From positions 1 through 22,147 of IMG/VR virus record IMGVR_UViG_3300004804_000034: a DNA stretch of 22,147 nt. One strand, written 5' to 3'. Origin of the DNA: a virus. Each line of letters opens with the position of its first letter. The stretch's first letter is position 1. Below are positions 6,608-22,147 of this stretch, piece after piece. A program made the position numbers and the translations under genes. Below the pieces are notes generated by a model, which worked only from the letters and a program-made list of their open reading frames with translations, did not search any database and was not told the origin of the DNA.

Positions 6608-8113
6608 TCAGGACGCGCCAACAAGCCGCGCCGGATAGTTCAGCGCAGGCACAACATCGGTAGCAGCTCCGCTGCTTATCCATTTTTGACCTGCTTCGCA
6701 CGTGCGCGTGTCTTCAGGCACAGACAAGAAATACTGCCGACCAGTAGACCGGCAGGCCAGAACCAGCTTGCGTTTCTTGATGGCGATGGTTTCTTTGCGC
6801 CGCGGCTGATTCCAAGAAACCCATACTTCGCGATCTCGGTGTTCCGTCAGCTCGACCAGCGCCTCGATGGTGTTGTCAACCCAGTTTTCGCGCCGGTCGA
6901 TAACAACCGCCTTGATGTCGGCGAGATACCTCGGCCAGCCGTACTTGTCGATCAGCACGCGCTTGATCTCTTCGTTTTCTTCGGTCTTGATGGCGTTGAG
7001 CGTGATTTGGTCTGGCGTATCGCAGATCATCTTGCCGTTTGTGCGCAGCGAATGGCCATCGATGTAGTACATTTTGGCGCCGTCCGGCCATTGCACAGCC
7101 GGGCCGTCCTCGCAATGGAGCTCGCCCGCGCTGTTGTGCTTGATCACCGGCCGCGAATCCAGCACCAGGGCGCTGTGCGTGAACGTCATGACGCACGCGG
7201 CTTCGTGCATCAGTTCATAGCGCCAGGTTTGCTGCAAATCCGACACGCCAAGCATTTTGAGCATGATTTCGGCGTCGATAAAGCCATGGGTGTGCCGATT
7301 GTCGAGCCACAGCAAATCTATCCGGTCGAACAACGCCGATAGCGCGGCAGAGCTGTCTGCCACATGGCCGAGTTTGAGCATTTCGCTGCTGGTGAGGTCG
7401 GCGGCGTAAAACTCACCGAGCACCGCCCGCTCAACGCTGCTTTGGCCGCTGTTCCTGTTGATCCCGAAATGGCTTATGCGGCTGACCTGGTTATTGGTCA
7501 ATTGAATATTCGCCGCGCTGTAGTCGTATTCCGGCAGCGCTGTGAAAGACTTCTCGAACATCTTTCTTATGCGGGTGGTGTCGGATTCTGTGACCTCTCG
7601 CCCGCGGCGAAGTCGCGATACTGGCTCTCGCGCGAAAGCCGCGGACGTCGCACCGTGTACATAATCAGTCAGCGTATCGTCCCAGACGCGCAATAGCGGT
7701 TGATGCGAGCCGCCCCAGGTATAGCGCGGCGTGTACTTGAACGAGCGCATCGAGTCGCGGCGCAGCGGCTCGATAAAACTTGGATCAATGTCCATGTTCT
7801 TGGCAGCGTCGCGCGCTTGCTTTTTGGACATCAATCCGCGCATAACAGCCGCGGCGATTCTGAACGCTGCCGGCGACTGTACGATAAAGAGCGCGGGTTC
7901 GTTCAGCTTGATCTTCTTGAAAGTAGTGCGGCTCGCGCCGGTTTTCTTGTTTTTGATGCGCTTTCTTTTAGTTATGGTTTCGTTCTTGTAGGCGGCGCGC
8001 AGCAACTCGCGCACGCGGTCCAGATTGAACGGCCGTGTTCCGGCGAGCGTGTGAGCCCAGCGCGTTACGACATCAACGATGAGGTTCTTGTGCTTCTTTG
8101 AAAGACGGGCCAT
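6608..8113 (-). CDS. DUF6745-like protein, 501 aa
   Basis: The N-terminal third is basic (KRKRIKNKKTGASRTTFKKIK around residues 50-70). The region around residues 310-405 carries the order typical of DUF6745 proteins: RPVIKHNSAGELHCEDGP, then VQWPDGAKMYYIDGHSL, then EENEEIKRVLIDKYGWPRYL and VVIDRRENW. A C-terminal block follows (KLVLACRSTGRQYFLSVPEDTRTCEAGQKW), corresponding to the R.Y.L.VP.D.....A..W ending I recall for the family. The family is known from actinobacteria and planctomycetes with no assigned biochemistry. The ATG at 8113 has TGGAG upstream; a strong hairpin lies 23 bases from it. It likely forms an operon with 6007-6579. Confidence 0.82.
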   Translation of the reverse strand: MARLSKKHKNLIVDVVTRWAHTLAGTRPFNLDRVRELLRAAYKNETITKRKRIKNKKTGASRTTFKKIKLNEPALFIVQSPAAFRIAAAVMRGLMSKKQARDAAKNMDIDPSFIEPLRRDSMRSFKYTPRYTWGGSHQPLLRVWDDTLTDYVHGATSAAFAREPVSRLRRGREVTESDTTRIRKMFEKSFTALPEYDYSAANIQLTNNQVSRISHFGINRNSGQSSVERAVLGEFYAADLTSSEMLKLGHVADSSAALSALFDRIDLLWLDNRHTHGFIDAEIMLKMLGVSDLQQTWRYELMHEAACVMTFTHSALVLDSRPVIKHNSAGELHCEDGPAVQWPDGAKMYYIDGHSLRTNGKMICDTPDQITLNAIKTEENEEIKRVLIDKYGWPRYLADIKAVVIDRRENWVDNTIEALVELTEHRDREVWVSWNQPRRKETIAIKKRKLVLACRSTGRQYFLSVPEDTRTCEAGQKWISSGAATDVVPALNYPARLVGAS

Positions 8114-8208: not shown

Positions 8209-8556
8209 TCAACGCACCGGCTTGACGACCGTCCGAGTGCCCTTGCGGGTCACCGAGCCGCCTAACAGGCGGTGTCGGTGAAAATCGTTCTGCTGCTGAT
8301 CAACGCTGAACAGCTTGCACTTGCCGTTGGCGCAGGGATTGCGCGACGGCTGCTGCACAGCGATCACGGCCGGTCGCGATTCCACAACAACCGGAGCGGA
8401 CTCGACCACCACAACGGGCGCAGGGGTCACCACAGTGGTCACAGCGGCCTTGGGCGCCGCATGGTTGTGGTTGAGCACGCTGACCGTCTCTCCAGCAACG
8501 GCTGCCGAATAGCAGCAGGTCAGAATCGCACAGAGGGTAAAGAATGCCTTCTTCAT
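8209..8556 (-). CDS. Exported Val/Pro-rich small protein, 115 aa
   Basis: A signal peptide is clear: MKKAFFTLCAILTCCYSAAVAG, with probable cleavage after AVA (residue 21). The mature part has a low-complexity Val/Pro/Ser region (VVTPAPVVVVESAPVVVESRP), then a short Cys motif (NPCANGKCK) and a basic tail ending RTVVKPVR. Such Val-rich, CxxGxC-containing exported proteins are a style I associate with planctomycete cell-surface proteins. The gene starts five bases after the secreted HExxH gene with AAAGGA in that gene's last codons, so the two are an operon. A cell-envelope role is inferred from the export signal only. Confidence 0.82.
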   Translation of the reverse strand: MKKAFFTLCAILTCCYSAAVAGETVSVLNHNHAAPKAAVTTVVTPAPVVVVESAPVVVESRPAVIAVQQPSRNPCANGKCKLFSVDQQQNDFHRHRLLGGSVTRKGTRTVVKPVR

Positions 8557-9329: not shown

Positions 9330-9662
9330 TCAGTCGAGCCAGTTATCCCCGCCGTATTCGACGTAAGAATTTTCAAATGCCAGCTTGGTGACGCTGTTTA
9401 TGTCGACGGAATTGCAATCCAGACCGTTTTCCAGCCAGTCGTTGAGCTCGCGCTGTTCTTCTTCGGTTGGGGCGCGCGGCTGCTCGTGATCAAAACAAAC
9501 TTCCGTGCACTCGACACTCAGAATATCCATCGTCGGTTCGGCTAGAAAATCTTCGTCGCCGAAGTTGATTTCGTACCAGATCCGAAACTCGAAGTTGCCG
9601 GCCTGGCCTGTCGGGTTGTCGCCGTGTTCGTCAACGGTGGTCCAGCAGAGACAGCTACTCAC
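9330..9662 (-). CDS. Acidic hypothetical protein, 110 aa, GTG start
   Basis: GTG at 9662 is used with AGG six bases upstream, overlapping the previous gene by eight bases. The protein is very acidic and contains five Cys, including SCLCW at the N-terminus and VECTEVC in the middle. Aromatic strands (FEFRIWYEINFGDEDF) suggest a small beta domain. The final part is acidic and Asn-rich. No family is recognised. It is the last gene of the run starting at 12303, followed by a 60-base gap. Confidence 0.7.
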   Translation of the reverse strand: MSSCLCWTTVDEHGDNPTGQAGNFEFRIWYEINFGDEDFLAEPTMDILSVECTEVCFDHEQPRAPTEEEQRELNDWLENGLDCNSVDINSVTKLAFENSYVEYGGDNWLD

Positions 9663-9930
9663 TGGGCACCTGTTTCACCTGCACGTGACGCGCGGCCATC
9701 TGCGCCTCGAGCCACGCGATCTCGTATGCCAGCGCGTCGGCGCGGTTGGCAAACCCAGTGACCTTCGGCCCGCCGACCGGGCTTAGATCGGCAAACCAGG
9801 TTCCGGGATAGCGCGGATCTGGTTCGACGTGGCTGGCGCGTTTGATATCAATCGCGCCGATTTCTTGCAGCGAAAGTTTTTCATCGTAGATGCACTGGGC
9901 GGATCCGTCCGGTCGGATGTAGAGGTTCAT
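9655..9930 (-). CDS. Small hypothetical protein with MNLYIRPDG start, 91 aa
   Basis: The protein opens MNLYIRPDGSAQCIYDEKLSLQEIG, continues with IKRASHVEPDPRYPGTWFADLSPVGGP and ends in a helix (ADALAYEIAWLEAQMAARHV). The order lYiRpDG...ciY, RASHVEPD...W.aDL.pvGGP and a final A...E..WLE helix matches a short hypothetical family that I recall from planctomycetes and their phages. The start forms an ATGA overlap with the beta-helix gene. Function is unknown. Confidence 0.78.
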   Translation of the reverse strand: MNLYIRPDGSAQCIYDEKLSLQEIGAIDIKRASHVEPDPRYPGTWFADLSPVGGPKVTGFANRADALAYEIAWLEAQMAARHVQVKQVPSE

Positions 9931-11042
9931 GCTGTTGGCTCCTCCAACCGCAGCAAGCGGCGTTGACGGACAATCTCCAGGTTTGCCGGCGCAATACCAC
10001 GACTTGTCGCAGCAGCGATTGCTGCCGCCACGTTCGGGTTGTTTGGCCGATCACCGCCGTCAGCGACAAACCTGCGCAGCGCGTTGATGTTACTGCTGCG
10101 CATATTGCCAAACAAATGACAATTTGCGGTTGAATCCAACTCATCAAAAAAGCGGATTGTGTCGCCTGCTTCTGCGATGGAAATCGCTAAACTTGCGTGC
10201 ACAAAAGCAGAATTGTGACGGACAAAACAGCGCGGCAACCGGAGCTCGCTATGCACAGCTGTACCCGTAAATTCAAAACGCTCGTCGGCCATTGCGTTCA
10301 TTACAGCTATCTCTGTTGTTTCCGGTGCGATGACGACGCCTGTTTGGGCGACGAGGTTGACTCGATTTGCCAAAGCGTGCGGCACCGTTGCGTCGGGGCT
10401 TCGCAAGTAATTGCTATACAAATAATGCCATTCAGTAGTTAGCGTACTGCTTAAAAGCATTGCGCTGTGCCGCAACGCAACATTGTTAATGCGGCTATCA
10501 ACGACAACTACCGCGTCTTCAATATAAGTGAATCCATAAATAAACGAATCTGAAAGCAGTGCGCGGCCGCCGATATACGCCGCTTTTCGCGCGGGCGGGC
10601 CGTGTAAACGCGTTGTACGAAGTACAGCGTTATCGGCAACAGTTGAGTGACCATCTACATATGAGCCGGCGGCGACGACGGCATAACCTGTAACGAACGC
10701 GTCGTCTTTGAGCTGCGAGCCGTCACAAACTGCCAGGCCGTTGATATGCGCGCGGTGAAAGAGCGACGAGGAATTAATCAGCTTCGCTCGGCCGCACACG
10801 TGTGAAGTCCCAGTGACGCGGCAGTCGTCATAAACACGGGCAAGGCCGTAAACCTGCGCGTTGCGTGTGACTTGCGCGGATTTAGCCACAAATGCCGTGT
10901 CTGCAACCCAACCGCCGCCGTTTTCATGGCGGTGCGCAAATACCTTGCCGTTGCCGTCTTTGAAGTCGTGCTTGGGCGCGCGAATCTTTCTGATCTTGAC
11001 GCTGCCCGCAGGTTCTGCGGGCAAAGAGAACATGTCGTCCAT
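9927..11042 (-). CDS. Left-handed beta-helix-like repeat protein, 371 aa
   Basis: From about residue 40 to 160 the sequence repeats a short hydrophobic period: GGWVADTAFVAKSAQVTRNAQVYGLARVYDDCRV, then HINGLAVCDGSQLKDDAFVTGYAVVAAGSYVDGHSTVADNAVL. Such runs of A.V..nA.Vyg.A.V are characteristic of parallel beta-helices with hexapeptide-like repeats, as in YdcK-type and other phage proteins. The C-terminal 150 residues are non-repetitive and end in an Arg-rich helix (EIVRQRRLLRLEE). No acetyltransferase signature is seen, so this is probably a structural or binding scaffold, possibly virion-associated given the tail-type gene two genes upstream. TAATG couples it to the preceding gene. Confidence 0.8.
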   Translation of the reverse strand: MDDMFSLPAEPAGSVKIRKIRAPKHDFKDGNGKVFAHRHENGGGWVADTAFVAKSAQVTRNAQVYGLARVYDDCRVTGTSHVCGRAKLINSSSLFHRAHINGLAVCDGSQLKDDAFVTGYAVVAAGSYVDGHSTVADNAVLRTTRLHGPPARKAAYIGGRALLSDSFIYGFTYIEDAVVVVDSRINNVALRHSAMLLSSTLTTEWHYLYSNYLRSPDATVPHALANRVNLVAQTGVVIAPETTEIAVMNAMADERFEFTGTAVHSELRLPRCFVRHNSAFVHASLAISIAEAGDTIRFFDELDSTANCHLFGNMRSSNINALRRFVADGGDRPNNPNVAAAIAAATSRGIAPANLEIVRQRRLLRLEEPTA

Positions 11043-12010
11043 TAGTCGTCCAACCGCTGCAGGCGGCGCCGGGGGGCAGTCTGCAGATGGCCATCGAGCG
11101 CCGTTTGCAACTCGCCCATCTGCTCGCGAAGAGCCTCGCGAAGGTTTTGGCTTTTGCGCAGATCGTTGGCCTCGATACCGGAGATCAGATCGTTCGCGCG
11201 GCCGACGAGCGCATCAAGCTCGGTGTTGCCGCGGATATTGAGATGCCGAAATTCCTGATAGAACTCGCGGAAGTTTTCCACGGTGCTCGGCTGAAACTTC
11301 TTGGGCTGGCCGTCCGGTGAGTCGGTCAGGCGCTCGATCAAGTGATTGATCAGTTCCTGAAGCTTCTCGCCGAACGCGCTCTCCGCCATTTCGATGGCCT
11401 GCTCGAACCGACGCTGGATGCGTTGCTGCTCCTGGGCGTACAGCTCCGGGTTGAACGTGCGCAGATAGCGCGGCGGCTCGACCGACGGGTATTCCCAGGA
11501 GATGCTGAATGCCCCCGCGAGCGTCGTTGGATAATCAGCTGCGTTGTAAAGCGTGCCGAGATGCTCGCGCGCACGTGTCTTGAGCGTTTCGTACTCCAGC
11601 TGCAGCTGCGCGACAGCTTCGGTGAGCCGAGTGCGGAACGCCTGCATTCGTGCTTCAAACTCTGTGATGTCATCGTACTTGATAAGCCTGACACCATCGG
11701 TTGGATAGGGCAGCGTCACGCCGCGCCAGTAACTTACTACCTGGCTCTTGATGGCGTTGACCGCTTTGAAAGCCGGGTGGCTGGTGTCGATCATCTTCTT
11801 GTACGCCGTCAGCAAACTGGCGTCGGCGTCGAACTGATCGGCGGCCTGGCGGGTCTGATTGTCGTTCAGGCTGCGGCGCGTGCCGAGCCAGGAGAACGAC
11901 ACCTTGATGGCACCCATAGTTTGCCGCATGTCGGCAACGGCTTCCGCAACCGGAATTGGATCGACCGGGGCTGTCGTGGTCGGAACGTTGGGCTCGAGCG
12001 TGGCGCTCAT
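11042..12010 (-). CDS. Long helical hypothetical protein, 322 aa
   Basis: After a disordered Pro/Thr-rich N-terminus the protein is almost entirely helical, with the segments FSWLGTRRSLNDNQTRQAAD, HPAFKAVNAIKSQVVSYWRG and long charged stretches (QEQQRIQRRFEQAIEMAESAF). A Pro-containing SWEYPSVEPPRYL interrupts the helices in the middle. It resembles hypothetical coiled-coil proteins I associate with planctomycete mobile DNA, perhaps distantly like the DUF3150 type that neighbours AAA ATPases on plasmids, but I cannot confirm this. AGGAG sits five bases before the ATG. Codons are GC-rich like the Ycf46 trio just upstream, suggesting common ancestry or partnership. Confidence 0.8.
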   Translation of the reverse strand: MSATLEPNVPTTTAPVDPIPVAEAVADMRQTMGAIKVSFSWLGTRRSLNDNQTRQAADQFDADASLLTAYKKMIDTSHPAFKAVNAIKSQVVSYWRGVTLPYPTDGVRLIKYDDITEFEARMQAFRTRLTEAVAQLQLEYETLKTRAREHLGTLYNAADYPTTLAGAFSISWEYPSVEPPRYLRTFNPELYAQEQQRIQRRFEQAIEMAESAFGEKLQELINHLIERLTDSPDGQPKKFQPSTVENFREFYQEFRHLNIRGNTELDALVGRANDLISGIEANDLRKSQNLREALREQMGELQTALDGHLQTAPRRRLQRLDD

Positions 12011-12018
12011 TGTTTCTC

Positions 12019-12303
12019 CTAGTCTTCGAAAGGCAGTAAGCGTCGCCGTACACCGGTCGACGTGTATCCATTTGTGGGGGCTGGTGCGAGCGGCACAGCC
12101 GCCGTGCTGCTGGCCTGGTCCCGCAATTCCAGCAGCTGGCCAACCTCGACCGCGCTGCCGGCTGCAATTTGATGCGGTTGGCCGTCGGGCCCGCCGATGT
12201 ACAGCAGCCCGTCTGCGAAATTGTAAGCCAGTTCGCCATACGCAAGGTTTTGCGGGGCGCCGCCGGGCGTCGTCGAGCGTTTGATGCGGATAATGTGTGT
12301 CAT
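12019..12303 (-). CDS. Phage tail / tropism-determinant N-terminal-type protein, 94 aa
   Basis: Residues 4-37 (IIRIKRSTTPGGAPQNLAYG followed by ELAYNFADGLLYIG) match the motif iKRS....P..L..GElAyn..dg.LyiG found at the N-termini of phage tail fibres and of the major tropism determinant. Only this module plus a short Ala/Pro-rich tail is present, so it may be a small adaptor or a truncated fibre base. The start codon lies seven bases after a hairpin and has no recognisable Shine-Dalgarno, which is unusual here. AGGAG of the next gene overlaps its stop. A role in tail or host recognition is inferred from the motif alone. Confidence 0.8.
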   Translation of the reverse strand: MTHIIRIKRSTTPGGAPQNLAYGELAYNFADGLLYIGGPDGQPHQIAAGSAVEVGQLLELRDQASSTAAVPLAPAPTNGYTSTGVRRRLLPFED

Positions 12304-12380: not shown

Positions 12381-13868
12381 TCAGTTGTTGCTGGGATTGA
12401 GCTTGCGTCGGGTGCCGGCTTTGGCGGCCGCCACCGAGCGCTTGAAGAAACCCTTGAAGTCCGCCGAGAGGCACCGGCCGTCGGCCCAGCCGCGCAGGTT
12501 CTCGATCGACTCGGCGTTCGTCACCGCGATCGGCACCACGTTCTGCGCCGCCTCGATGAGCGGCACGTCCAGCAGCGCCGCCAGACGGCAGCAGCTCTTG
12601 ATCTCGGCGCCGGTCCAGTTGGCGTCGTCGGGCCGAGCCTGTGCGGCGTTCAGCCCGAACTTCTTGAGGTACAGCTCCCAGATGTACTGCCGGGCGTTCT
12701 CGCCGGGCAGATCCACGAAGAACACGCCGTCGAAGCGCTCGGCGCGCGTGAACTCCGGCGGGAGCTTGCTGGCGTCGTTGCAGGTGCCGATGAAGAACAC
12801 GTCGCTCTTGTGGTCGTTGAGCCACGTGAGCAGCGTGCCGAACAGCCGGGCCGTCACGCCCGAGTCCGTCTGGCCGGAGCTACCGGTGCCCGCCAGCGCC
12901 TTCTCGATCTCGTCGCAGAACAGGATGCACGGCGCCATCGCGTCCACCAGCGCCAGCGCGCGCCGCATGTTGGCCTCCGACTCGCCGACGAACTTGCCCA
13001 TCAGGCTGCCGAAGTCCAGCATCACCGTGGGCCGCCCGACCTCGTTGCCCAGCGCCTTGGCGAACTGGGACTTGCCGCAGCCCGGAGGCGACAGCAGGAG
13101 CACGCCGCGGGGACGCTTCTCCGGATCCGACTCGCCCTGCCGCTTCATGGCGCGGATGCAGAACGCCTTGAGGTTCTCCAAGCCGCCGAGACCCTCAAAG
13201 CTGGCGTCGCCGCGGTACAGCTGCAGCGTGCCCGCTTTCTCGAGTGTCTGGCTCTTGAGGTTCCACACTACGTCCGGTGAAAGCGTGTTGTGGCGGATGA
13301 GCGACAGCGAGAACGCATTCTCGGCCTCGAGTCGCGTCATGCCGGCCGCCGCGTCAACCACCAGCCCGATCACCTCGTCCGACGGCTTGACGAACGAGTT
13401 GTTTTCGCCGCTGAACAGCTCGTTGACGATCGTCGCGAGCTGCTCCCGGGTCGGCAGCTCGTGATGCACGATCGTGAACAGCTTCTCGACCTCCGGCTGC
13501 AGCTGCAGCACGGGGCTCACCACGATTACGTGCTGACCGATGGCCTTGCCGGTGGCCACACGGTTTTGCAGCACCTGCATCACCTCCGGATTGGGCAAGA
13601 ACCGGTGAAAGTTCTTGACGATCAGCAGCTGCGTGCTGTTGGTCTTGGCCTCCGCCGTGTCCAGCCAGCGCAGCGCGTGCACCGGGCCCGGCGCCGGTGT
13701 GGGCCGGCCATACAGCTGCCGGTCCAAGTCCCAGATATCGCAGCCCCAGCTGCGGTTGTCGGCCATCTTCTTGATCGTCGCGATGGCGTCGTCGGCCTCC
13801 TGGGAGTCAACCCAGATGCCGGAAAAACCCGCGCAGATCAGTTCCTTGATGTCGTTTTCGAGAGACAT
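12381..13868 (-). CDS. Ycf46-like AAA+ ATPase
   Basis: The 495-residue protein has the two-part layout of Ycf46-type ATPases. Residues 1-220 form the N-terminal region (GFSGIWVDSQEADDAI, LIVKNFHRFL, HVIVVSPVLQLQPEVEKL, LPTREQL). A AAA+ module follows, with GLGGLENLK at 226-234, Walker A PPGCGKS (261-267), GKFVGESEANMRRAL (291-305), Walker B ILFCDEIEK (315-323), DSGVTARLFGTLLTWL, sensor-1 region around Asn364, arginine-finger candidates in TRAERFD (374-380) and sensor-2 region WTGAEIKS. All ATPase residues appear intact. It is the last gene of a DUF1257-DUF2997-AAA operon with a 12-base gap and a good AGGAG. The family is known in cyanobacteria, plastids and many bacteria, with no settled substrate. 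Codons are strikingly GC-rich. The AAA+ call is certain, the Ycf46 subfamily very likely. Confidence 0.93.
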   Translation of the reverse strand: MSLENDIKELICAGFSGIWVDSQEADDAIATIKKMADNRSWGCDIWDLDRQLYGRPTPAPGPVHALRWLDTAEAKTNSTQLLIVKNFHRFLPNPEVMQVLQNRVATGKAIGQHVIVVSPVLQLQPEVEKLFTIVHHELPTREQLATIVNELFSGENNSFVKPSDEVIGLVVDAAAGMTRLEAENAFSLSLIRHNTLSPDVVWNLKSQTLEKAGTLQLYRGDASFEGLGGLENLKAFCIRAMKRQGESDPEKRPRGVLLLSPPGCGKSQFAKALGNEVGRPTVMLDFGSLMGKFVGESEANMRRALALVDAMAPCILFCDEIEKALAGTGSSGQTDSGVTARLFGTLLTWLNDHKSDVFFIGTCNDASKLPPEFTRAERFDGVFFVDLPGENARQYIWELYLKKFGLNAAQARPDDANWTGAEIKSCCRLAALLDVPLIEAAQNVVPIAVTNAESIENLRGWADGRCLSADFKGFFKRSVAAAKAGTRRKLNPSNN

Positions 13869-13880
13869 GAATTCTCCTGG

Positions 13881-14072
13881 TTAGTTCTGGACATCGATCT
13901 GGTTGGTCTCGGTCTCGGCGTAATACTCCGAGGTCATATTCTCGCCGGAGGACTTGCCCAGCGCGGCCTCGAAGGCCCGCGAGGCGTCCTGGCAACTGCC
14001 GCCCGTGAACCCCTTGGTCTCGAGCTTGGTCTCGCCCTTGGGAGAGACGACGATTTCGATGGTCTTGCTCAT
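13881..14072 (-). CDS. DUF2997 family protein, 63 aa
   Basis: The short protein MSKTIEIVVSPKGETKLETKG continues with FTGGSCQDASRAFEAALGK and ends NMTSEYYAETETN. This is the canonical DUF2997 pattern: an I.I.v.p.G....e..GF.G..C beta hairpin, an invariant-looking Cys at residue 27, an amphipathic helix with the form fe.alG, then T.EYY. The members I recall sit next to DUF1257 and AAA ATPase genes, as here. Its biochemical role is unknown; the hairpin-plus-helix shape might suggest a small modifier or adaptor. It starts five bases after the DUF1257 stop, with GGAGG in that gene's end. Confidence 0.9.
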   Translation of the reverse strand: MSKTIEIVVSPKGETKLETKGFTGGSCQDASRAFEAALGKSSGENMTSEYYAETETNQIDVQN

Positions 14073-14077
14073 GTGCT

Positions 14078-14440
14078 TCAAGCCTCCAGGGTGACGGTGA
14101 GCTTCACGGAGCCGTCGGACAGCGGCTCCTCGTAAACCGAATAGCCATTCTTGGCGGCCTCGAGCTTGGCCTTCTCGATGGCGTAGGCCTGCAGAAACGA
14201 ATCGAGCGTTTCCTGCTTGCCCCACGCGCCGTTGTAGTTGTCGAAATCCACGGCGCCGGTGCCGAGGTTCACGACCACCGGAAATTGCCAGCCGGGCAGC
14301 TTGACGCCGAGCCCTTCGCGCTGGACGCTGAAAACACTGAACTTGCCGACTGTGGGCTGCTCCCACTTCAGGCGCAGGCAGGCGGCACGAACAGCCTGCT
14401 CGTCACGCAGCTCGGTCTTGATCTGAACGATGTGAGACAT
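14078..14440 (-). CDS. DUF1257 (Ycf35-like) protein, 120 aa
   Basis: The protein starts MSHIVQIKTELRDEQAVRAAC, the typical DUF1257/Ycf35 opening. It continues with LGVKLPGWQFPVVVNLGTGAVDFDNYNGAWG and a helix LDSFLQAYAIEKAKLEAAKNG, then YSVYEEPLSDGSVKLTVTLE. This order (H....ikT...d..a...a, lpGW..Pvv, DNY.G.WG, L..f.Q.Y...ka, D Gsv.L) is what I recall for the family. Ycf35 proteins occur with Ycf46 in cyanobacteria and red-algal plastids, with unknown function. An excellent AGGAG lies six bases before the ATG. It is the first gene of the trio. Confidence 0.9.
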   Translation of the reverse strand: MSHIVQIKTELRDEQAVRAACLRLKWEQPTVGKFSVFSVQREGLGVKLPGWQFPVVVNLGTGAVDFDNYNGAWGKQETLDSFLQAYAIEKAKLEAAKNGYSVYEEPLSDGSVKLTVTLEA

Positions 14441-15028: not shown

Positions 15029-15349
15029 CTAATCGTTCTTCGAATTGTTGTGCTGCTGACGATAGTCTTTCAACGCATACTGAGCTACCTGCGCTGGATC
15101 TGCGCAGGCGTTATCTTCGAAGGCAAATCCCTCGAGGATGGCGACCATTTCTTCTCGACTGCAGTAATCGCCGATCTTTTGCGGGCCACGACTTGTGTCC
15201 AGCGTCATCTCGGCGACGTCTTTGAGAGTAATTGCGAAAGGAATTGCAATTACGTCGGCAAACTCTTTCCGGATGTTGTCAAGATACTGCAGCGCGTTTG
15301 CTACCGCGCCGGCATCTTGATCGCGTTCTTCGAGTGTGTACTTTGTCAT
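15029..15349 (-). CDS. Hypothetical protein, 106 aa, source of a duplicated fragment
   Basis: The ATG at 15349 overlaps the upstream stop as ATGA; a longer frame to 15397 is rejected. The protein (MTKYTLEERDQDAGAVANALQYLDNIRKEFAD...) is acidic and helical, with a central AEMTLDTSRGPQKIGDYCSREEMVAILEGF and a C-terminus YALKDYRQQHNNSKND. That end reappears as a diverged copy at 14444-14521. The domain may be a small alpha-helical regulator, but I do not recognise it. Confidence 0.75.
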   Translation of the reverse strand: MTKYTLEERDQDAGAVANALQYLDNIRKEFADVIAIPFAITLKDVAEMTLDTSRGPQKIGDYCSREEMVAILEGFAFEDNACADPAQVAQYALKDYRQQHNNSKND

Positions 15350-15627
15350 GAGACCTCTACTTCGGCTCTGGTTTCGATCCAAATACGTGCGCCGCACGAA
15401 AGCGGTTTATCCATACGCTGTACGACGACGCTTCCGCCGCGAATAGATATCTTTGAGCCAGTGTACGACTTGCCTTTCCACTGCACAGTCGTTGCTGGCG
15501 CGTCGCGTTTAGTTTTGATGTTGCTGCGGATTATGTGCTGGTTAACATGTATCCGCTTCAACGTTCCCGCAGGCATTACCACTGGCGTAGCTTTCCGCAC
15601 TGGTAACACCGGGCAGTCATTGGGCAT
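15346..15627 (-). CDS. Conserved-type hypothetical with IHVNQHIIR and PLSCGARIWIET motifs, 93 aa
   Basis: The order KRIHVNQHIIRSN (residues about 24-36), then TVQWKGKSYTGSKISIRGGS, then DKPLSCGARIWIETRAEV (about 72-89) follows a small, widespread hypothetical family that I recall from planctomycetes, actinobacteria and mobile elements, in which the vNQH and rPLSCGArvWvET blocks are most constant. No function is known to me. AAGGAG five bases before the ATG gives a confident start. A 15-bp hairpin lies 24 bases upstream. It starts the operon leading into the Ycf46 trio. Confidence 0.82.
   Translation of the reverse strand: MPNDCPVLPVRKATPVVMPAGTLKRIHVNQHIIRSNIKTKRDAPATTVQWKGKSYTGSKISIRGGSVVVQRMDKPLSCGARIWIETRAEVEVS
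15445..15452. repeat. AGATATCT element, copy 6, inside the 15346-15627 gene
   Basis: Plus-strand context is GAATAGATATCTTTGAG. It is within coding sequence but matches the intergenic copy at 12353 over 15 of 17 positions in reverse orientation. Confidence 0.55.
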
Positions 15628-18549: not shown

Positions 18550-20475
18550 ATGGCACCAGGAATAGCGCGGGATGTGAACCCGCAAGAATTAACAGGCTTA
18601 GAAGCTCCCAACGCGGAAATTCGTCACCTGTTAGAAGAACTGGGCGGCATCGACGTTACGGATGCCGCGTCGATGAATGCGCGGTCTGCGGTGTTTCAAG
18701 AGTTGGCTAAGCAACGCGCGTTTCCGTCGCTAGAGCCAATTTTGCCACTCGTGTTAAACTTGAACGGCAGGCCATACAGCACGGCCGACCATTACCCGTT
18801 CTCGCCGCTTTTTCGGTTGCTTATGCCGAAGAATCTGTGTTTGAAAACCGGTCGACAGGTTTCAAAATCGACGAGCCTTTCTGCACACGGCGTCATCGTC
18901 TCAAACTGCATTCCGTTTTTCAAAACGTTGTTTGTAACGCCGCTTTTTGAACAGATTCGGCGTTTCAGTAACAACTATGTGCGGCCGTTTATTGAGCAGT
19001 CACCGTTGAAGTCGCAATGGTCCGGCACAGACACTGAAAACAACGTGCTGCAGCGCAGTTTCAAGAACAAGTCAATCATGCTGTTCTCGTTTGCACTGCT
19101 TGACGCGGACCGCGTGCGCGGCGTGTCCAGTGACCGTGTCGTGCTTGACGAAATTCAAGACATGGATCCAGATCATATTCCAATTATCCAGGAAACCATG
19201 TCTTATTCGCGTTTTGCGCTTACTCATATGGCAGGAACGCCAAAATCTTTGGATAACCCTTTAGAGGGGTCTTATCGTCGCAGCAGCGGAGCCGAATGGT
19301 TTATTCCGTGTCAATCTTGTCGGCACTGGAACATCCCATCATTGGAGCACGATCTTGACGCGATGATCGGTCCATACAACATTCATATCAGCGAAAAGTA
19401 TCCTGGGACTGTGTGCGCAAAGTGTCGCAAACCTATTAATCCGCGGCAGGGCCGTTGGGTCCACCGGCATCCGGATCGCCGGTGGCAGTTTGCGGGTTAT
19501 CACGTGCCGCAAATGATTCTGCCGCTGCACTTCGCCGACGCTGAAAAATGGTCCACGTTGCTACTCAAGCGCGAAGGCTTCGGCAATATGACGCAGGCAC
19601 AATTTTACAACGAGGTGATGGGCGAAAGCATTGACGCGGGACAGAAGCTCATCTCAGAAACCGAGCTGCGCAACGCTTGTTTGCTGCCGTGGAAAAACGC
19701 TAAAGAACCCACGCCAGAGTGTGTTGAAAATCTTTCAAACTACAAACACCGCATGCTTGCAATCGACTGGGGCGGCGGCGGCGAAGCTGGTATTTCGTTT
19801 ACCGTACTTGCCGTGTTGGGTTTTCGCCACGACGGAACAATCGACGTGCTGTGGGCCAAAAAGCTGCTAATCGGCGGCGATCACTTAGCCGAAGCTGTCC
19901 AGTGCATGAAATACAGCAATTTGTTCAATTGCGACTTTGTAGCTCACGACTACACCGGCGCCGGCACAGTTCGCGAAACTGTGATGGTGCAGGCTGGTTT
20001 TAACTTGGATCGTGTGATGGCAATGCGGCTGGTCAGAAGCGCGGCACAAGATTTTTGCGTCTACAAAGCTCCGACTGTCATCAATCATCGGGCGCACTAT
20101 TCATTGGATAAAACCCGGTCGCTGCTGTACACCTGCCAAGCAATCAAACTCAAACAGGTCCGCTTTTTTGCATATGACTGGGAATCGCAGGATCAACCCG
20201 GACTGATTGCAGACTTTTTGGCGCTGACCGAAAACAAGCAAGACAGCCGGTCTGGTGGAGACATTTACACGATCACGCGCAATACGCTGCTGTCAGACGA
20301 CTTTGCGCAGGCTGTGAACCTGGGCTGCGCAGCGCTTTGGCACATCAACGACGCCGTACCGAACTTTGCAGAGTTAGCCGGCGTGGCCCGCCTGAGCAAC
20401 AAAATCATGGAAGCCGAAAGCCCCGAGCACTGGACCGACGACGACATGGGCGGGAAGTTTTTTGGCGGCTATTGA
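18550..20475 (+). CDS. Phage terminase large subunit
   Basis: The 641-aa protein is the ATPase-nuclease motor that packages phage DNA into proheads. Residues 101-108 (GRQVSKST) are the Walker A variant typical of terminases, with Ser in place of the usual Gly before Lys. VVLDEIQDM (197-205) is Walker B, with Asp200-Glu201. MAGTP (227-231) fits the coupling motif. A zinc-ribbon-like insert has CxxC at 254-257 and 289-292. The RNase H-like nuclease has Asp406 in LAIDWGGGGE, Asp467 in VAHDYTGAG, and a plausible third Asp in DDFAQAVNLG (583-592). It is the only plus-strand gene. AGGA lies 11 bases before the ATG, in the divergent small membrane gene. No small terminase subunit was identified. Confidence 0.95.
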   Translation: MAPGIARDVNPQELTGLEAPNAEIRHLLEELGGIDVTDAASMNARSAVFQELAKQRAFPSLEPILPLVLNLNGRPYSTADHYPFSPLFRLLMPKNLCLKTGRQVSKSTSLSAHGVIVSNCIPFFKTLFVTPLFEQIRRFSNNYVRPFIEQSPLKSQWSGTDTENNVLQRSFKNKSIMLFSFALLDADRVRGVSSDRVVLDEIQDMDPDHIPIIQETMSYSRFALTHMAGTPKSLDNPLEGSYRRSSGAEWFIPCQSCRHWNIPSLEHDLDAMIGPYNIHISEKYPGTVCAKCRKPINPRQGRWVHRHPDRRWQFAGYHVPQMILPLHFADAEKWSTLLLKREGFGNMTQAQFYNEVMGESIDAGQKLISETELRNACLLPWKNAKEPTPECVENLSNYKHRMLAIDWGGGGEAGISFTVLAVLGFRHDGTIDVLWAKKLLIGGDHLAEAVQCMKYSNLFNCDFVAHDYTGAGTVRETVMVQAGFNLDRVMAMRLVRSAAQDFCVYKAPTVINHRAHYSLDKTRSLLYTCQAIKLKQVRFFAYDWESQDQPGLIADFLALTENKQDSRSGGDIYTITRNTLLSDDFAQAVNLGCAALWHINDAVPNFAELAGVARLSNKIMEAESPEHWTDDDMGGKFFGGY

Positions 20476-21761: not shown

Positions 21762-21981
21762 GCTGCTCTTGACGTGTCAGCAAACGCTTTGGGAACTTTT
21801 CTGGGTGACACATGTGGCAGCGCGCTCTGCGGCAGCCGCCGCATTTTAGTGTCTTGCGGAACAACCCAGTTGTCGGCATGTAATCTTCGCCGGACAGTCC
21901 GCGCAGGCTGGCGCCGCTGAGCTGTCGGTAGCGTTTGACGCGCTTTGCGATGATGTGCTGTTCTTCCTGGTAACGTTTCAC
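21688..21981 (-). CDS. Cys-rich small protein (CxxC...CHMCH), 97 aa, GTG start
   Basis: The start codon is GTG (21981). The middle LKCGGCRRARCHMCHPEKFPKRLLTRQEQHAQVRFREEV has four Cys in two CxxC-like pairs (CGGC, CHMC), a likely zinc ribbon, followed by a basic Lys/Arg-Thr-Arg-Gln-Glu helix. This order resembles a hypothetical family (C...C..CHg.K.pkr..Tr.E..A) that I recall from planctomycetes and actinobacteria. The first 15 codons lie in the terminal inverted repeat, so they are duplicated in mirror image at 22102-22147. Confidence 0.74.
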   Translation of the reverse strand: MKRYQEEQHIIAKRVKRYRQLSGASLRGLSGEDYMPTTGLFRKTLKCGGCRRARCHMCHPEKFPKRLLTRQEQHAQVRFREEVQSVDQTCVDQSVSA

Positions 21982-22147
21982 GTGTTTGCCTCACACAGTA
22001 AGACTTGTTTGCACCCACACTGTTGGGCAAGATGCAGCGCTGGCGCTGCATCTTGCCCAACAGTGTGGGTGCAAACAAGTCTTACTGTGTGAGGCAAACA
22101 CGTGAAACGTTACCAGGAAGAACAGCACATCATCGCAAAGCGCGTCA
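21936..22147. repeat. Perfect 105-base inverted repeat ending at the last base
   Basis: 21936-22040 and 22043-22147 are exact reverse complements around a 2-base centre (TG). Both arms contain the first 15 codons of the Cys-rich gene and its 60-base upstream region, so the plus strand carries an open mirror copy starting GTG at 22102 that runs off the window. The arm reaches the final base, so its full length cannot be judged. A hairpin genome end or an assembly fold-back would both give this. Confidence 0.9.

Follow-up and report, generated by a model that had tools for sequence, protein, structure and literature searches.

The window analysed here is a stretch of 22,147 nucleotides (positions 1 to 22,147 of the IMG/VR record IMGVR_UViG_3300004804_000034) and, because it encodes a large terminase, it derives from a phage. 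On its minus strand lie three genes with gaps of only 5 and 12 bases, each with an AGGAG- or GGAGG-like ribosome site ahead of it, and these genes are present and intact. They open a longer module, and the features of the locus are as follows:

14078..14440, minus strand: DUF1257-like (Ycf35-like) protein of 120 aa, opening the module (PF06868 17.4 bits; profile-profile E 5.3e-18)
13881..14072, minus strand: DUF2997 protein, 63 aa, with Cys27 present (PF11211 E 3.6e-15, 56 bits against a cut-off of 24.1)
12381..13868, minus strand: AAA+ ATPase, 495 aa, probably two-part (PF00004 E 5.5e-27; phrog_8638 E 1.9e-79)
12019..12303, minus strand: 94-aa ORF between the AAA and DUF3150 genes (phrog_15769 E 9.5e-4; tail fibre phrog_19966 E 0.08)
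11042..12010, minus strand: the module's fourth member, a DUF3150-family protein of 322 aa (lineage-only HMM against the Manganitrophus DUF3150 protein, 5.5e-48)
9927..11042, minus strand: left-handed beta-helix-like protein, 371 aa, between DUF3150 and s84 (phrog_7964 E 2.4e-16)
9655..9930, minus strand: small protein “s84”, 91 aa, fifth member (E 2.1e-27 against a planctomycete/Nitrospirota model)
15029..15397, minus strand: 122-aa gene flanking the module, a locus marker that also flanks a MoxR-VWA pair in three sister phages
8209..8556, minus strand: 115-aa gene on the opposite flank, with homologues beyond the MoxR-VWA pair of sister phages, some of these matches being short
18550..20475, plus strand: large terminase, 641 aa (phrog_675 E 9.5e-52)

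The preliminary description of this DNA had given the coordinates, strand and gaps of the first three genes exactly, and the residues that it listed as intact are conserved. Walker A (SPPGCGKS, 260-267), Walker B D319/E320, N364 and R375/R378 of the ATPase are nearly invariant across the phage lineage, and Cys27 of the DUF2997 protein is invariant in alignment A1 (9 sequences). Membership of DUF2997, which had been proposed from the letters alone, was borne out by the curated PF11211 cut-off, and the same family scored above cut-off in 17/17 phage records, a count that is not independent because the records were picked for matching. The assignment to DUF1257 held by one route and not by another: in a single-sequence search the window protein missed the curated PF06868 cut-off (17.4 vs 22.2 bits), but an alignment of its family matched one built from DUF1257 proteins, of which several clear the PF06868 cut-off, over 118 columns with hhalign. 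Because of this profile-profile match we regard 14078-14440 as a DUF1257 homologue despite its Pfam score. An AlphaFold model of the protein (pLDDT 87.8) gave no significant match to PDB folds, and the DUF2997 profile had no match in the PDB. The ATPase matched PF00004, and its nearest solved chains are Cdc48/p97, with which it has the AAA domain and probably a two-part architecture in common. It probably consists of a degenerate N-terminal AAA-like half followed by an active-type AAA domain (~220-470); the two halves gave a partial alignment (P 3.8e-4, probability 36%). Unlike in Cdc48/p97, the N-terminal half is probably degenerate, and no p97 N-domain was recognised. A Pfam search found no CbbQ_C domain in the protein, and it does not classify as the ATPase of a MoxR AAA+/VWA pair.

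The tight phage-borne cluster of Ycf46-like AAA, DUF2997 and DUF1257 genes had been described as a complete trio. The cluster stands, but it is not complete, as the conserved unit comprises five genes and extends to 9655, taking in DUF3150 and s84. The window's DUF3150-family protein gave nothing at E 0.1 against PF11348 and did not reach the curated cut-off; its Manganitrophus homologue clears that cut-off (35.3 vs 24.9 bits), and in an alignment the window protein is 42-48% identical to planctomycete proteins. A structural model of it (pLDDT 86.8) had no significant fold match in the PDB. The s84 protein has no Pfam family and is recognised by the pattern RASHVEP...W.ADL.PVGGP...F..R..AL..E..WL. 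Two other genes lie among these five. The 94-aa ORF, whose tail-fibre-like matches are weak, has homologues in contigs L007, L022 and L027 and is probably an insertion carried by only some relatives, and the beta-helix-like gene is kept across the phage lineage and had no match in 80 cellular loci. Outside the module, positions 6608-8113 encode a DUF6745-domain protein (501 aa, E 2.9e-17) that is kept in near relatives only.

The survey of phage genomes called for by the preliminary description recovered the trio at one place. In a scan of viral contigs, the order DUF1257-DUF2997-AAA was found beside the terminase in 48 contigs, of which nine measure 197-205 kb, and because of this recurrence the arrangement is not due to chance. 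The idea that the trio is odd phage cargo is ruled out by its fixed place in the lineage. In some relatives a group I intron (RF00028) of ~810 bases interrupts the AAA gene, with its insertion point between the Walker B codons for Asp319 and Glu320; it was confirmed in four contigs (L022, L030, L037 and L041), and in contigs L023 and L024 the gene is broken at the same point. An intein was considered for this interruption and rejected in favour of the intron. Group I introns usually occupy conserved phage genes. Six contigs (L018, L028, L032, L036, L049 and L055) carry an ORF of ~130 aa for a GNAT-like acetyltransferase between DUF2997 and AAA. A scan of some intergenic gaps found no tRNA genes.

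The trio or parts of it also occur in cultured phages of Rhizobium, Aeromonas, Agrobacterium, Rhodobacter and Pseudomonas (Samunavirus), as well as in Tunturiibacter phages; in phage RHph_I4, DUF1257 and DUF2997 are already annotated. The AAA gene occurs alone in Mycobacterium phage Catdawg and in Javan368. In Tunturi_3, gp96 (L079, 8384-9343) is annotated as an HNH endonuclease, yet it is a DUF3150-family homologue with no HNH match. In the cyanophage P-SSM7 (L086), the “hypothetical” proteins T4-GC 174 and 175 are DUF2997 and DUF1257 (Ycf35), encoded near psbA and ferredoxin; the AAA gene is not nearby. Among plasmids, those of Candidatus Manganitrophus carry AAA, DUF1257, DUF2997 and DUF3150 with a small gene of the s84 family; a supposed JAB gene near this module proved to be RadC-like instead of ubiquitin-type. 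The drug-resistance conjugative plasmids of the IncC group (backbone pSRC119-A/C) resemble the phage in clustering AAA, DUF1257-like, DUF2997 and a weak s84-like gene, here upstream of type IV secretion genes. They differ from it in that their DUF3150 gene sits elsewhere, with MoxR and VWA genes, and the sequences are far diverged.

The closest counterpart of the phage module is a chromosomal cluster of Planctomycetota. All five genes were present in 41 of the 80 cellular loci, which are mostly from this phylum, and the commonest cellular order is DUF1257-DUF2997-AAA-DUF3150-s84. The phage module has the same five families, usually in the same order, with best matches 50-56% identical, but it has the added beta-helix gene and sometimes other insertions. 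DUF2997 was found in 44/294 sampled Planctomycetota genomes, in up to 7 copies. In the ATPase tree, the phage proteins form one clade within a clade of phages and Planctomycetota (100% for the joint clade; 90% with L109/L121), and a homologue from a cyanobacterial plasmid (L170) falls outside it on a weakly supported branch. Because the phage ATPases nest in this supported clade, a planctomycete is likely to be the host of the phage or the donor of the genes. This assignment rests on the gene tree, as a terminase search of 392 planctomycete genomes gave remote matches in only 9. One planctomycete locus (L182, G167:C36) has AAA-DUF1257-DUF2997-s84, a gene for a PD-(D/E)XK-like nuclease and one for a terminase-like ATPase within ~12 kb, and is possibly an unrecognised mobile element.

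A further view of the module came from sister phages, which were scanned for by terminase alone, so that the module was not a selection criterion. Their terminases are 74-81% identical, and at 17 of their loci a MoxR ATPase, called with the MoxR model alone, stands in the module's place; the remaining close relatives with enough sequence carry the module. Both sister-phage MoxR proteins tested (n=2) have AAA_5 and CbbQ_C, and wherever the sequence is long enough the MoxR gene is followed by one for a protein of ~1,055-1,173 aa, with a CobT-type VWA domain in both of those tested (n=2). The flanking genes on both sides are common to the two locus types. Module and MoxR were found together in no contig searched, the MoxR-type records being partial (28-120 kb). 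A MoxR query in 15 module-type records picked up nothing but the P-loop of the module's own ATPase, apart from one weak match in G007, and DUF2997 and DUF3150 are absent from the MoxR-type records tested. A more distant relative (G424) keeps the module in a different gene order. On the terminase tree the swap requires at least two changes, one of them forced by well-supported branches, and the evidence for replacement may thus come down to a single event. The two sets belong to different AAA clades, and the module has no VWA protein. On IncC plasmids, DUF3150 lies beside a MoxR gene (AAA_5, CbbQ_C) and a CobT-like VWA gene, and its presence there as well as in the module suggests that it serves both machines.

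Pairs of MoxR AAA+ and VWA proteins (CbbQO, NorQD, RavA-ViaA, CobST) serve to remodel target proteins and to insert metal ions (PMC13036017). The MoxR-VWA pair of Acidianus two-tailed virus has a reported chaperone role in tail development, and that of jumbo phages has been proposed to act in virion assembly (PMC7824862). Gene content, conservation, co-occurrence and syntenic replacement of the module are observed directly, and because of the swap and the common DUF3150 we believe that assembly or remodelling is its most likely task. We propose, with moderate confidence, that the five proteins form an ATP-driven chaperone machine that does the job of MoxR-VWA, most likely on a phage complex such as the virion. 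The five would sit in one complex. To judge from its family, the AAA+ protein would be the ring motor, DUF1257 and DUF2997 would be its standing small partners, and DUF3150 and s84 may be substrate-side or regulatory subunits. In this lineage the module would take the role that MoxR AAA+ and the CobT-type VWA protein have in sister phages, and would most likely help a phage protein complex, e.g., the virion, to mature or assemble. The losses of ycf35 and ycf46 from the plastids of red algae are correlated (PMC5940233), which fits such a joint machine. A common locus need not mean a common function, as hot spots may also trade unrelated cargo, and it speaks against an assembly role that in other phages the trio has replication genes rather than structural ones for neighbours. 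The preliminary description had suggested a remodelling ATPase with a small partner and an adaptor; this remains the best reading, but the unit is larger and is fixed in the phage lineage.

That description had also contemplated use against the host, and the ATPase could be a segregase that dismantles or inactivates host complexes (e.g., in defence or transcription) during infection, with the small partners selecting targets. The Cdc48/p97 segregases are its nearest solved relatives, and core parts of the module travel on such varied invading elements as phages, IncC conjugative plasmids and transposon-linked loci. The fixed place by the terminase and the swap with a MoxR-VWA pair speak against this, and PADLOC returned no full match to an anti-phage system for the module proteins: the similarity was weak and partial, to IetA in the AAA domain only, with none for the four partners, and we consider such a role possible but unlikely. 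A DNA transaction, be it support of packaging, replication or recombination, would suit the terminase next door, the replication genes that follow the module in Rhizobium, Agrobacterium and Pseudomonas phages, the nuclease and terminase-like genes of the planctomycete locus L182, and the IncC plasmids, where MoxR, DUF3150 and VWA genes flank ssb, bet and an exonuclease gene. But no DNA-binding family was detected in any of the five proteins and the position of the module differs among phages, which makes this role quite unlikely.

A link of such cassettes to ubiquitin-like conjugation, mentioned in the preliminary description, is real: genes for a ThiS-type Ubl, a ThiF-type E1, a JAB protein and an E2/RING-like protein occur together beside the module in 8 planctomycete loci. 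At one of these (L102, 199-6028), tnsA/B/C/tniQ-like genes, Tn7-like by eye, lie directly upstream of the module and the Ubl, E2/RING-like, JAB and E1 genes. The phage might then have captured part of a conflict system of the ubiquitin-like kind from planctomycetes and turned it on rivals or on the host's own copy, and the branching of its ATPase with Planctomycetota would fit. However, the conjugation genes adjoin only a minority of the cellular loci, and Nitrospirota, plasmids and many phages have the module but lack these genes. As the preliminary description had noted for this DNA, E1, E2 and JAB are missing; searches with planctomycete models for these and for Ubl found none in the window, the phage loci or one near-complete phage genome. 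We therefore regard the capture as very unlikely. The relatives in cyanobacteria and red algal plastids raise the prospect of an auxiliary metabolic set, for iron-sulphur or photosynthesis-like maturation. They share the DUF2997 and DUF1257 families and an AAA protein of SpoVK/Ycf46/Vps4 type, and are linked by gene neighbourhood, as in the cyanobacterial DUF2997-ycf35-fed7 cluster (PMC4284462), and by the plastid gene losses already described. Radical-SAM/4Fe-4S protein genes also lie beside the trio on Paenibacillus and Paenarthrobacter plasmids. In contrast, the module of the window has neither a ferredoxin nor a radical-SAM gene, its host is likely non-photosynthetic, and it is a fixed phage gene set, unlike patchy cargo. 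A metabolic role is highly improbable. Compared with the cyanobacterial and plastid set, the phage DUF1257 is divergent, below the Pfam cut-off, and neither DUF3150 nor s84 is reported for that set.

Returning to the assembly machine, the open literature searched yielded no account of the five-gene unit, its phage distribution or its exchange with MoxR-VWA, nor any paper on DUF3150 or functional paper on DUF2997 or DUF1257. A biochemical role is still to be settled for Ycf46, Ycf35, DUF2997 and DUF3150, and a unit that is fixed in phages and planctomycetes, is partly kept on conjugative plasmids and is naturally swapped with MoxR-VWA yields a concrete functional hypothesis for them. It is tempting to go further, and we do so tentatively: mobile elements may use a second type of AAA+ assembly machine, exchangeable for MoxR-VWA at one locus, and this could also explain plastid ycf35 and ycf46 as general protein-maturation parts. 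Culturable systems for a test exist in the Samunavirus phages of Pseudomonas and in IncC plasmids in laboratory E. coli. Lastly, the window, and with it the contig, ends in an inverted repeat of 105 nt (21936-22147), which is perfect and has a 2-nt spacer. Contig L186, otherwise identical to the window, departs from it at this repeat, which is probably an assembly artefact.
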